Shown here one piece after another: positions 9,626 to 18,260 of a DNA stretch of 33,766 nt. Made by a program: the position numbers and the translations under genes. The notes below the pieces were generated by a model, which was given only the letters and a program-made list of their open reading frames with translations, searched no databases and was not told where the DNA came from. Each line of letters opens with the position of its first letter. Position 1 is the first letter of the stretch. Source of the stretch: Candidatus Saccharimonadota bacterium (GTDB lineage Bacteria > Patescibacteriota > Saccharimonadia > Saccharimonadales > UBA10212); contig JAICWR010000006.1 in NCBI GenBank assembly GCA_025934715.1, positions 1 through 33,766 of the forward strand. Reading direction: 5' to 3'.

Positions 9626-9883
9626 CTAAACTTTTTTAAGTGTATTAGATAACATTTTATTAATGTGGTTTCTGCCCCATCCTGTTTTAAGCCACTTCTC
9701 TCTCAGATACGCATCATACTTATTGGTGAAGGCTTCATAAAATATTAAGTCATATGGACCAGAATCACTAGTCCATTTCACTCTGCGAGAATTATGTTCC
9801 TTAAGCCGTTTTTGCAAATTATTGGTGCATCCAGTATAAAACTTGCCGTCAAGTCTGCTTTTCAATATATAGACATAATACAT
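9626..9883 (-). CDS. GIY-YIG domain nuclease-like protein
   Basis: Single GIY-YIG domain protein of the YhbQ/UvrC-N type. The N-terminus has YYVYILKS (GIY-equivalent) and FYTGCTN (YIG-equivalent), followed by the conserved Arg in LQKRLKEHN and a Glu in AYLREKWLKTGWGR. The start MYYVY is preferred over the ORF-track start 17 codons upstream because the family begins at this point. At 85 aa it has the normal length for stand-alone members. The stop lies just upstream of ndk. It is AT-rich compared with ndk and sits 57 nt from the heptamer array that borders the S23 gene. It may be an accessory or mobile gene, but many such proteins are stable residents of CPR genomes. Confidence 0.85.
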   Translation of the reverse strand: MYYVYILKSRLDGKFYTGCTNNLQKRLKEHNSRRVKWTSDSGPYDLIFYEAFTNKYDAYLREKWLKTGWGRNHINKMLSNTLKKV

Positions 9884-9940
9884 AAAAAAGTTTGGCGGAC
9901 TAAGTATAACAGATGAGAATCTGAGCAACAACACTGCTCA

Positions 9941-9973
9941 AGTAGGCATTAGGGAGTAGGCAACAGGCATTAG
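9941..9973. repeat. Heptamer array A-left (next to S23 gene A)
   Basis: Tandem degenerate 7-mers, on the minus strand AATGCCT, GTTGCCT, ACTCCCT, AATGCCT. The stop codon of the S23 gene lies inside the array edge. It is the inverted counterpart of the array at 10324-10352. Confidence 0.75.
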
Positions 9974-10272
9974 TTTTTGAGCTTACTTATTAACGCGTAG
10001 AGCATTTTCTGAACCTCGCTGAGCAATTCCTCCGCTCTACGTGTTTCTATATGCGGGTACTCTTGCTTAATAATTACCACTTGCGTATCAAGTTCGGCTG
10101 CCGAGCCAAAGGCCATGGATAAGAATCGTATGTAGTCGCCTGTACTTCTTCTGGCGTAGCCCTCTGAAATATTTGAAGGGATGGAAACAGCAGATCTTTG
10201 AGCCTGACTTACAAGCCCGAACTGTTCACTTTTAGGAAGCTTTTTGGACAAGGCATAGGTTTCGCTAACCAA
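9970..10272 (-). CDS. Four-helix-bundle (S23 / 23S rRNA intervening-sequence) protein, start unclear
   Basis: 100 aa as tracked, belonging to the S23 four-helix-bundle family first seen in 23S rRNA intervening sequences. Its biochemical role is unknown. The core signature is present: QAQRSAVSIPSNISEGYARRS and a helical region around AAELDTQV. The reading frame continues 16 codons upstream of the tracked TTG start and encodes YKDLEVWKRSIALVSE, the normal N-terminus of the family. However, there is no ATG, GTG or TTG between an in-frame stop (10330-10332) and that segment. Either an ATA within the heptamer array serves as start, the start has been lost, or the short form is made. It is flanked by inverted heptamer arrays. 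Confidence 0.75.
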   Translation of the reverse strand: MVSETYALSKKLPKSEQFGLVSQAQRSAVSIPSNISEGYARRSTGDYIRFLSMAFGSAAELDTQVVIIKQEYPHIETRRAEELLSEVQKMLYALISKLKN

Positions 10273-10323
10273 AGCAATGCTACGTTTCCATACTTCTAAA
10301 TCCTTATACGAACGCGGCTTAAC

Positions 10324-10352
10324 TATTGCCTATATCCTATTGCCTATTCCCT
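10324..10352. repeat. Heptamer array A-right
   Basis: On the plus strand four tandem 7-mers run as (T)ATTGCCT, ATATCCT, ATTGCCT, ATTCCCT. It is inverted relative to 9941-9973 and covers the expected start region of the S23 gene. A 13-nt stretch TTGCCTATTCCCT recurs exactly inside pilD. Confidence 0.75.
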
Positions 10353-10372
10353 AAAAAGAAAATTGCTAGAGC

Positions 10373-15072: not shown

Positions 15073-15083
15073 AACGCTAGCAA

Positions 15084-15145
15084 TTTACCGTTGACAGTTT
15101 ACCGTTTACAATGCGTTTACTATGAACCGTGAACCGTTTACTATG
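15084..15145. repeat. Heptamer array B-left
   Basis: Tandem 7-mers on the plus strand: TTTACCG, TTGACAG, TTTACCG, TTTACAA, then TGCG, then TTTACTA, TGAACCG, TGAACCG, TTTACTA. The 4-nt TGCG interruption after four units recurs in the inverted right array. The start region of the S23 gene lies inside it. Confidence 0.8.
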
Positions 15146-15499
15146 GGCAACCGGACCATTAGCTTTAGCGCCAATATTATTAACTTCTGTAAAAATGAAA
15201 AAATGACTCCAATAACTAAGCCTTTGATTGAACACTTAGTAAGGTCGGCTACATCTATCGGGGCCAACTATGCAGAAGCCAACAATGCGGCTTCAAAAGC
15301 TGATTTTCGAAGTAAAATTTATATTGCAAAGAAAGAAGCCGCTGAAACCAAGTACTGGCTAGCCCTGATGCTTAATTTAGCGGCGGATAGGAAGACATGC
15401 ACAGAGCTTCTGAATGAGAGCCATTATCTGTTAATGACCTTCCAAAAGATTATTAGTACCTTGAAGAATGGTAAACAGAAAGCAGTTAACGCAAGGTAA
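15143..15499 (+). CDS. Four-helix-bundle (S23 family) protein
   Basis: 118 aa from the chosen start MGNRTISF; the tracked start is 7 codons upstream in the heptamer array. Family features are clear: FSANIINFCKN, LVRSATSIGANYAEANNAASKADF and KKEAAETKYWLALM, which give four amphipathic helices. The function of S23 proteins is unknown. The last codons (about NGKQKAVNAR) and the stop are read from the right heptamer array, so the coding region is embedded between, and partly made of, the repeats. It is on the strand opposite to the pilus genes on both sides, which fits insertion as a unit. It is only distantly similar to the S23 protein at 9970 and carries a different heptamer. Confidence 0.85.
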   Translation: MGNRTISFSANIINFCKNEKMTPITKPLIEHLVRSATSIGANYAEANNAASKADFRSKIYIAKKEAAETKYWLALMLNLAADRKTCTELLNESHYLLMTFQKIISTLKNGKQKAVNAR

Positions 15500-15523
15500 A
15501 CAGTGAATGGTAAACTGTAAACG
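15470..15523. repeat. Heptamer array B-right
   Basis: On the minus strand: TTTACAG, TTTACCA, TTCACTG, TTTACCT, then TGCG, then TTAACTG, CTTTCTG, TTTACCA. It is the inverted counterpart of 15084-15145, with the same TGCG break after four units. It ends 4 nt before the pilD stop codon. Confidence 0.8.
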
Positions 15524-15526
15524 TTT

Positions 15527-16384
15527 TTAGAGGCCGAATAGGTTTTTATACCAAGTTATTAGGCTGTCGCCAAAGACTACGAAAATGCCGGTGGCGGCTA
15601 TTAAAAACGGGCCGTAGGGTGTTTTGCTGGCCATGGTCTTTTTGTTAGTTATAAGATGCGGCAGCACAAAAAGCGTCCCAAGCAGCGAGGAAACAAATAT
15701 CATCCCTAAGCTTTTATAGGGGTCGGACAGCAGGGTCCCGGTGACCAAACCAAGCCGGACGTCGCCAAAACCTATCCACTTGCCCTGCGAAAATGTATAC
15801 AAGATATAGAAAATGCCGCTGGCAATGGCCACGGATAAGGCCCATAGCCAGACCGCATGGCCGGGGCGCCCCTGGAATACGCCTATATAAACCGCGCGTC
15901 CGGCGGCCGCCACCGCTAAGGTGGGATAAATGATTTTATTCGGCAATATCATCCAGCGGATGTCATATACAGCCAATCCCATAAGGCCCACAGACGCCGT
16001 CAGCCAGGTGGCCAGCAGCAGCCACTGGCCGTTAAAGTGCGGCGCTGCTGGCCAAAATATGTAGCTTAGCGCGAAAATAAAGCCCATGGCCAGTTCTACA
16101 GCTGGATATTGCTTAGAAATCGTCTTGCCGCAGTGACGGCAGTGGCCTTTTAGCAAAATCCAGCTTATGACCGGCACTAAATCCAGGGCGGACAGCTGGT
16201 GGCGGCAGTTGGGGCACATGCTACGGCCTTTTAGTATGGAAAGGTCGCCATGATTTAGATTTCTTTTGCCTGTTGCCTGTTGCCTTTTGCCTATTCCCTG
16301 TTCATGCAGGCGCCAAACAAGGGCGTTAACAAAGCTGCCCAGCCCAAGGCCCAGAATGAATAGGATGATAGAAATTAGAAGCAT
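15527..16384 (-). CDS. pilD: Type IV prepilin peptidase / methyltransferase, with a repeat-derived insert
   Basis: Membrane aspartyl protease that cuts prepilins after the leader Gly and may N-methylate the new N-terminus. The N-terminal LGLGLGSFVNALVWRL, the paired CPNC and CRHC zinc-binding cysteines with the ISWILLKGHC segment, and the two catalytic Asp motifs (VYDIRWMILPN and GFGDVRLG) are all present. There are several membrane helices over 285 aa. Between VWRLHEQ and DLSILKGRSMC lies a basic, low-complexity insert (GIGKRQQATGKRNLNHG). It is encoded by a tandem heptamer array, absent from typical PilD, and kept in frame. The gene is downstream of pilA after a terminator and next to S23 element B. 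Confidence 0.9.
   Translation of the reverse strand: MLLISIILFILGLGLGSFVNALVWRLHEQGIGKRQQATGKRNLNHGDLSILKGRSMCPNCRHQLSALDLVPVISWILLKGHCRHCGKTISKQYPAVELAMGFIFALSYIFWPAAPHFNGQWLLLATWLTASVGLMGLAVYDIRWMILPNKIIYPTLAVAAAGRAVYIGVFQGRPGHAVWLWALSVAIASGIFYILYTFSQGKWIGFGDVRLGLVTGTLLSDPYKSLGMIFVSSLLGTLFVLPHLITNKKTMASKTPYGPFLIAATGIFVVFGDSLITWYKNLFGL
16263..16299. repeat. Solo heptamer array inside pilD
   Basis: On the plus strand tandem 7-mers TTTGCCT, GTTGCCT, GTTGCCT, TTTGCCT, ATTCCCT. The last part (TTGCCTATTCCCT, 16287-16299) is identical to 10340-10352 of array A. It lies in the cytoplasmic loop region of pilD without breaking the frame. Confidence 0.75.
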
Positions 16385-17045: not shown

Positions 17046-18260
17046 TTAAGTGGCTGTTATTTTGTTAGCTAAGCCGTAGATTGGCAACAATATGGCGGCC
17101 ACGATTATCAAAGCCATCACGCCCAGCAGAATCATCAGCACCGGCTCAATGATGGTCGATATCGCGGCAATTTCGTTATCGACCTCTTTTTCATAATAAT
17201 CGGCGGTCTTACCCAGCATAGTTTCCAGCGAGCCGGATTGTTCGCCGATTTTAATCATATCTGGGACTAATTCTAAGAAGTTAGGGTCGCCTTCGAGCGC
17301 TTCGGACAAGGCTTTGCCGCCTTTGACTTTTTCGGCGGCTTTATGGACCGAATCCGCTATATGCACATTATTGACTGCGTCGGCCACGATGTTCATGACC
17401 TGCAGCAGCGGCACGCCGCTGGCCACCAAGGTTTGCCCGGTGCGGCTAAATCTAGCCATGTACATTTTCATGAATAAATGCCCAATCGGCCACATCCGCA
17501 TCTTGGCCTTATCCACAATCTCCTTGCCGGGGCCGGAGCGGGCCCAGCGGGTGGTGAAAAAGGCGGCCACGCCCAGCAGGATGATTATCAGCCACCAAAA
17601 ATGGCTTATTAGCCGTGACAGGCCTAATAGGGCGCGGGTCACAAACGGCAACGTGGCGCCGGGTATGGTGGTGTAGACTTCCTGGACATGGGGCAGCACC
17701 ACCACGACCATGAACGTCACCACGGCAATCATCACAACTATGACAATGAGTGGGTAAATTAAGGCGCCGCGGACTTTGGAGATGATTTCAGCGTCTTTTT
17801 CCTGCTGGTTGGCCAGGCGCTCCAGCGCTTTATCCAGTGTTCCGGAGGCCTCGCCGGCCTCGACCAAACTGACATAAACATTGTTAAAAACCCCGGGGTA
17901 GCGGGCCAGGGCTTCGTGGAATGAGGAGCCGGCTTCGATGTCGGCCAGGACTTTTTCAATGATAAGCTTTAGGGGTTTGCTGGCAGTCTGCCCTTCCACG
18001 TTCCGTAGAGCCTGGGCCAGCGGCAAGCCGGCATTTATAAGCGTGGCGAGCTGGCGCGAAAAAATGACTTTGTCTTTGGTCTTAATCCGGTTGCGGAATC
18101 CGGTCAGGCTTTTTTCGCTGTTTGCAAGGTTAATTTCCAGGGGCGAGTAGCCCTGGCCTTTAATCGCCTTGGCGGCCGCTTTTTCATTTTCGGCCTGGAC
18201 TTCGGACTCAATCCGTTTGCCGGAGGCCGGGTCGCGCGCGACGAATGTGTATGTCAGCAT
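17046..18260 (-). CDS. pilC: Type IV pilus inner-membrane platform protein
   Basis: 404-aa PilC/GspF protein. It carries two repeated T2SSF domains (about 62-190 and 265-390), each starting with a F-x-R-x-x-A-x-L-x-x-x-G-x-P-L type motif (FSRQLATLINAGLPL and FSRTGQTLVASGVPL). Membrane helices lie at about 165-190, 215-240 and 370-395. It is the rotor or platform on which PilB and PilT act. The N-terminal about 55 residues form the small YTFVARDPASGKRI domain seen in many PilC proteins. It lies 3 nt after the pilT stop and is clearly co-transcribed. Confidence 0.95.
   Translation of the reverse strand: MLTYTFVARDPASGKRIESEVQAENEKAAAKAIKGQGYSPLEINLANSEKSLTGFRNRIKTKDKVIFSRQLATLINAGLPLAQALRNVEGQTASKPLKLIIEKVLADIEAGSSFHEALARYPGVFNNVYVSLVEAGEASGTLDKALERLANQQEKDAEIISKVRGALIYPLIVIVVMIAVVTFMVVVVLPHVQEVYTTIPGATLPFVTRALLGLSRLISHFWWLIIILLGVAAFFTTRWARSGPGKEIVDKAKMRMWPIGHLFMKMYMARFSRTGQTLVASGVPLLQVMNIVADAVNNVHIADSVHKAAEKVKGGKALSEALEGDPNFLELVPDMIKIGEQSGSLETMLGKTADYYEKEVDNEIAAISTIIEPVLMILLGVMALIIVAAILLPIYGLANKITAT

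Follow-up and report, generated by a model that had tools for sequence, protein, structure and literature searches.

A heptamer array read in frame in the prepilin peptidase gene of a Saccharibacteria genome is a probable solo copy of S23-arm-type DNA

The gene for the prepilin peptidase PilD in a Candidatus Saccharimonadota genome contains a short tandem array of heptamers that is translated as part of the protein. This raises the question of whether the insert is a normal piece of PilD that happens to be periodic, or repeat DNA that entered the gene and was tolerated there. We addressed this in the window, the whole stretch of 33,766 nucleotides analysed here, which is contig C25 of a 714-kb genome (G000). 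The features concerned are collected in Table 1.

Table 1 Features of the window that bear on the origin of the pilD array (positions count from the first letter of the window).
Feature	Position	Strand	Remarks
S23-A downstream arm	9941-9973	-	AATGCCT/GTTGCCT/ACTCCCT, inverted relative to the other arm
S23-A	9970-10272	-	23S_rRNA_IVP / four-helix-bundle, S23 subfamily 1; arms share the pilD unit
S23-A upstream arm (array A)	10319-10356	+	ATTGCCT TATATCC TATTGCC TATTCCC; holds the 13-nt pilD match
S23-B upstream arm	15079-15114	+	TTTACCG/TTGACAG heptamers
S23-B	15122-15499	+	23S_rRNA_IVP, second S23 subfamily; adjoins pilD; different heptamer
S23-B downstream arm	15495-15523	-	inverted GTTTACC-type heptamers
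pilD	15527-16384	-	prepilin peptidase (A24), 285 aa; PF06750 (A24_N_bact) and PF01478 (Peptidase_A24)
Five-unit heptamer array	16265-16299	+	NTTGCCT/ATTCCCT; in frame within pilD

On the forward strand the units of the array are, in order, TTTGCCT, GTTGCCT, GTTGCCT, TTTGCCT and ATTCCCT, and the pilD coding strand reads AGGGAAT, AGGCAAA, AGGCAAC, AGGCAAC and AGGCAAA. They lie between VWRLHEQ and the first CxxC of PilD with the reading frame kept, in what we take, from established PilD topology, to be the first cytoplasmic loop, with TM1 on one side and the CxxC pairs on the other. A sequence-only reading had placed five in-frame heptamers here, as the sequence confirms; its span of 16263-16299 ends correctly and starts two bases too early. 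The array itself encodes approximately (Q)GIGKRQQATGKR, which agrees with part of the extra peptide that this reading proposed, and the NLNHG that it also included is non-repeat. The best lag-7 score of the array is 19 of 21 comparisons. Codon shuffling never exceeded 17 in 20,000 trials, and synonymous recoding, which kept the same protein, never exceeded 18 in 20,000. As neither procedure ever matched the score, the periodicity resides in the DNA.

To compare the loop across relatives, PilD was identified in 58 of 60 genomes and supplemented by 80 named loci from an alignment query, which gave about 130 Saccharibacteria loci, some genomes overlapping. The homologues found by name are nearly all from Candidatus Saccharibacteria or Patescibacteria MAGs, the closest mostly from groundwater. 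The flanks (VWR... and GRSxCPxC) align throughout, and the segment between them ranges from almost nothing (G004, G005, G009 and G013) to about 65 residues in G036, with short loops in the sister species G002 and several others. The array is absent or different in these relatives, as the sequence-only reading had predicted, and both the sequence and the length of the insert vary, so the conservation that would have marked it as an ordinary part of the protein was not seen. The Pfam A24_N_bact match uses 100 residues of PilD (residues 10-109) for 82 of its 84 profile positions; the loop is therefore extra. In the AlphaFold2 model of PilD (mean pLDDT 93.9), the first helix is extended, and the array segment spans its end and the beginning of the loop, within the least confident stretch (pLDDT 79-84). 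The idea that the loop is a variable, insertion-tolerant segment is supported by these comparisons of sequence. It is very improbable that the insert is instead a normal, selected part of PilD, that is, a basic loop with its own function in which the repeat form is incidental. The loop is K/R/Q-rich in most relatives, and the model suggests that it extends helix 1 and is not fully disordered, but neither sequence nor length is conserved, four genomes manage almost without it, and synonymous recoding fails to reproduce the repeat. The loop of about 65 residues in G036 (L059) has palindromic DNA segments and represents another kind of in-frame insert in the same place.

Periodicity above synonymous recoding was found in the PilD loops of four relatives (G008, G011, G015 and G035; p 0.005 or less); G006 was borderline (p 0.06), and the remaining loops did not exceed it (for example G001, p 0.10). 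The units were GCTCAAA four times in G011, AGTCACT four times plus an inverted GACT array in G008, AAACAAA and GAACAAT in G015, AGGGNNN in G035, and AGCAATA in G006. Among the 80 named loops, only four of these five genomes and one A-rich case passed a lag-7 threshold. The AGCTTTA repeats in the PilD of G011 and G015 were rejected as insertions and not counted, as they encode a conserved gap-free segment.

Such arrays were also detected in the RuvX and TrmD loops of 7-8 family members each, and ruvX, trmD and the other array-carrying genes stay open through them. Before DEHAxAAAIIL in RuvX, eight family genomes have period-7 stretches with differing units and the others have none. Against synonymous recoding, four of these reached p 0.005 or less and G001 0.016, with G000, G008 and G013 borderline; the G000 array in ruvX was found at a slightly looser threshold than that of the census described below. 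The clearest case is TrmD, which has in most genomes a fixed-length loop around DPDA or an equivalent; in one clade this loop is replaced by arrays of ACAAAAA (four times, G008), AGTCACT/AGTCGTC (G013) or GCAAAAA (four times, G006), decayed in G003 and G011. Array-free relatives exist for the replaced loops of both proteins. Further in-frame arrays were found in a methyltransferase and, as single cases, in ArgS, RF2, PrmC and UvrC. Similar arrays with different units, in the same loop and in others, point to repeat DNA repeatedly colonising coding genes.

Seven bases do not make a whole number of codons, so the units of an array with at least three of them fall into all frames in turn. Arrays in coding sequence therefore lend themselves to testing how insertion driven by the DNA is filtered at the level of the protein. 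The mean number of stops per unit was 0.26 in coding arrays and 0.55 in noncoding arrays. We rejected separate selection for avoiding stops, since the better strand of the noncoding arrays has 0.31 (p 0.24); the coding arrays have fewer stops because of the choice of orientation.

The unit of the pilD array leads to the S23 genes. An exact match of 13 nt, TTGCCTATTCCCT, links it to array A at 10340-10352, as had been noted from the sequence. It is not the longest match; the array has 15 nt in common with the S23 locus of G015 and 14 nt with that of G012. The G015 pilD array, in turn, shares 19 exact bases with the S23 arm of its own genome. S23-B, the nearest S23 gene, has arms of the GTTTACC type, and the earlier statement that its heptamer differs was correct; no S23 gene with the pilD unit was found at the pilD array, and no trace of a second, inverted arm was found beside it.

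Across 45 S23 loci (130 kb), there were 64 lag-7 arrays compared with 0-3 at other lags, placed just outside the S23 ORF. The upstream arm scored on average 26.3 against its own reverse-complemented downstream arm and 16.3 against those of other elements, a difference reached by 0 of 10,000 permutations. The two S23 subfamilies separate in the S23 tree, and their upstream arms, on the S23 sense strand, are purine-rich in subfamily 1 (purine fraction 0.66) and pyrimidine-rich in subfamily 2 (0.39). The sequence of the arms is conserved only where the S23 proteins are close. At the S23 loci sampled phylum-wide, 47 arrays had lag 7 and 14 had lag 8, with 0-3 at the other lags except for the double period 14. 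Inverted heptamer arrays flank S23 genes across Patescibacteria and also on cyanobacterial plasmids, where all 8 of the 8 S23 genes examined had arrays (in one case clear on just one side); the Gemmatirosa S23 has octamers. Arms of period 8 in place of 7 were seen at the S23 genes L377, L380, L386, L393, L401 and L291, which are scattered in the S23 tree. In the open-access literature, with most subscription papers outside this scope, no description of S23 genes with heptamer arms was found. To our knowledge, S23 has no nuclease or transposase activity and the family has no established function outside the rRNA IVS. Directly beside S23-A, an ORF at 9626-9934 (minus strand) looks by eye like a GIY-YIG nuclease domain.

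To profile dispersed arrays, we combined pattern searches with sampled stretches (356 kb in G000), and densities were computed with runs of N masked. G000 has 18 lag-7 arrays in these 356 kb, and lags 5, 8, 10, 11 and 13 gave 0-2. Array density was 10.6 per 100 kb in S23-bearing genomes and 1.2 in S23-free ones, about nine times lower. Within the family, the correlation between S23 count and array density is weak (rho 0.48, p 0.058) and only suggestive, with G048 (six S23 genes, no array in 31 kb) and G013 (arrays, no S23 hit) as exceptions. S23 is the only gene consistently linked to the arrays. The pilD unit family is the commonest in G000, occurring in the S23-A arms, in inverted pairs on contigs C22 and C24, at the ends of contigs C9 and C17, and elsewhere. 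Further solo arrays of this heptamer, for which the sequence-only reading had suggested a search, are present in the genome. Arrays within one base of the pilD unit make up 26% in G000 and 2% in other genomes. For units in general, pairs within one base are 7.6% within a genome, 5.4% between genomes and 3.6% for shuffled units. The idea that pilD arrays match their own genome only was rejected, as units are also common to other species. Contigs C9 (end, 17542-17572) and C17 (start, 1-75) terminate inside pilD-type arrays, and the assembly therefore probably broke at these repeats.

These data bear on whether the repeat arose in place, unconnected with S23 elements, by polymerase slippage in a lysine-rich, unconstrained loop. 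In many bacteria, repeats of seven nucleotides outnumber the other longer repeats, and a slippage origin has been put forward for them (PMC4679880); the basic composition of the PilD loop in most relatives and the modest overall sharing of units inside genomes would also agree with it. On the other hand, period 7, not being a multiple of 3, is disfavoured in coding DNA, yet no arrays of period 6 or 9 were seen in these loops. Arrays are rare in S23-free relatives, the pilD unit belongs to the commonest family of its own genome and is common to S23-A and the S23-less inverted pairs, and the TrmD loops went from a conserved DPDA loop to arrays. We consider slippage in place improbable.

The inverted pairs raise a different alternative, in which a complete, MITE-like pair entered pilD and then lost one arm, the "solo" array being its remnant. 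The PilD loops of G008 and G011 have a short core with an array on each side, the two inverted relative to each other, and appear to hold both arms, so a solo arm may be a remnant of a pair. G000 itself has S23-less inverted pairs of the ATTGCCT/ATTCCCT unit at C22:7457-7546 (L142) and C24:27040-27070 (L122); their arms are only about 8-15 bp apart, and they resemble miniature elements. However, the window has no trace of a second arm beside the array, and solo arrays predominate among the dispersed ones (36 of 42 in G006, 32 of 38 in G008 and 11 of 18 in G000). We consider loss of an arm from a complete pair rather unlikely. Other S23-less elements in G000, of the GTTTACC type, are found at L131:12400-12513, L135:3646-3737, L138:8024-8120 and L141:12813-12960, and resemble the S23-B arms (window 15079-15523).

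The history of the arrays was followed on a tree built from PilD, RuvX and TrmD with the loops masked. The trmD arrays fall in one clade (support 63). The ruvX arrays occur in this clade and in G000 and G001, with none in G002 and others, which would mean at least two gains unless one gain with several losses is allowed. The pilD arrays are scattered over the tree. Sister species G008 and G013 have unrelated units at the same TrmD site, and G000 and G001 have a RuvX array in common in which the units have diverged. The pilD unit recurs at other loci of its genome, and units also change at fixed sites. As the sisters differ at one TrmD site, the turnover of units where an array has been inherited matters as much as new insertion; arrays therefore persist while the unit gets rewritten. 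Given this fast turnover, an insertion that was later rewritten is a better fit than a single recent jump. The rewriting may have come about by re-insertion into existing arrays, by exchange among arrays, or by slippage combined with substitution. A single ancestral insertion per gene, with later replacement of the units by conversion or re-insertion and no separate jump into pilD in this species, is possible but unlikely. The single trmD clade with its unrelated sister units and the common RuvX array of G000 and G001 speak for it; the scatter of pilD arrays, the short loops of G002 and several others, and the G001 pilD loop, with no significant periodicity, speak against it. Among the relatives compared, which are separate species, we saw neither a transposition event nor a target-site duplication, nor an empty site at the level of strains.

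We conclude that the array in pilD is real and driven by the DNA, and that it is one among many dispersed arrays of S23-arm-type heptamers. From what was directly observed (the DNA repeat, its in-frame site, the variability of the loop, the recurrence in PilD, RuvX and TrmD, the inverted arms of S23 and the enrichment), we think it probable that the array is a solo copy of S23-arm-type DNA that spread by copying into a tolerant loop. Arrays of this type are dispersed through the S23-bearing genomes of this Saccharibacteria family; one landing in coding sequence would survive only in a tolerant, variable, hydrophilic loop, with the frame kept and few stops on the strand that is read. The PilD loop after TM1 would be such a place, and after landing, units may be gained, lost and rewritten. 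The sequence-only reading had already suggested solo spread, and the variable tolerant loop, the absence of or difference in the array among relatives and the solo majority agree with it; as for the movement itself, we infer that arrays would spread as copies of other arrays, a step that S23 or some partner may promote, and that the pilD copy may have arrived as one arm alone. The probabilities given here to the preferred reading and its rivals do not sum to one, as the rivals on the solo origin and on ancestral insertion overlap with it.

Among known systems, REPIN/RAYT and MITE systems comprise an autonomous gene, gene-less inverted pairs and solo copies. The S23 arrays may be likened to this three-part set-up by way of a working analogy; they differ in that no RAYT or other transposase was identified here and in that the units are tandem heptamers, not palindromes. 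We know of no S23 association of the Borg repeats, which belong to archaeal extrachromosomal elements. Their published description has in-frame tandem repeats within genes adding low-complexity protein segments (PMC9879509), and to that extent they resemble the arrays. Rickettsia palindromic elements are found in frame within unrelated protein-coding genes, where they are translated as an extra peptide (PMC10969869), just as short repeated DNA is in pilD, ruvX, trmD and others. Those elements are about 150 bp long with a conserved peptide, whereas the pilD array is a 35-bp tandem of 7-bp units, shows no palindromic unit of that size, and is of a type with many units whose encoded peptides vary between species; it works like the Rickettsia elements and is not one of them. 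Its unit is common to the arms of S23 genes (13, 15 and 14 nt), and it lacks the inverted arrays beside an S23 gene that such arms have. The S23p protein (PF05635) of 23S rRNA intervening sequences is of the same family, and the Coxiella intervening sequence is described as a selfish element (PMC4990558); the S23 genes here lie between protein genes with heptamer arms, outside 23S rRNA, and the pilD array has no S23 gene. Cyanobacterial STRR or TAACTGA arrays are likewise dispersed heptamers, with several copies per genome like the arrays of G000, and cyanobacterial plasmid S23 genes are flanked by such arrays. TAACTGA arrays are described as mainly intergenic with a possible regulatory role (PMC4679880), and the open-access literature searched gave no link of STRR to S23 genes or to in-frame spread. 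We tentatively suggest, at rather less than even confidence, that S23 genes and their inverted arms of heptamers, or in some cases octamers, constitute a widespread mobile-element family of Patescibacteria and Cyanobacteria, that solo arms time and again insert in frame into loops of core proteins and remodel them, and that the long-known STRR heptamers are the same thing.

This would unite the unexplained heptamer arrays of bacterial genomes with orphan S23 (four-helix-bundle) genes and with the variable, lineage-specific loops that core proteins of tiny-genome bacteria carry. If true, S23 arms spreading as solo arrays give these loops fast-changing repeat sequence, and S23 gains a testable partner in its own arm sequence. 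Two further observations concern arrays in coding genes. The PrmC genes of G006 (array at L162:8699-8737) and G012 (L240:886-919), from two genera, have near-identical C-terminal halves, and the array is part of this match, pointing to either horizontal transfer or contamination. Hairpin-like repeats of 20-30 bp (GCCCGCYTTCGCYAAGGCTACGGYGGRCAGGC; CATTCGACARGCTCAGG) lie inside or beside heptamer arrays at L255 and L032 (trmD and pilD of G006), L256 (trmD of G015) and L258 (trmD of G012).
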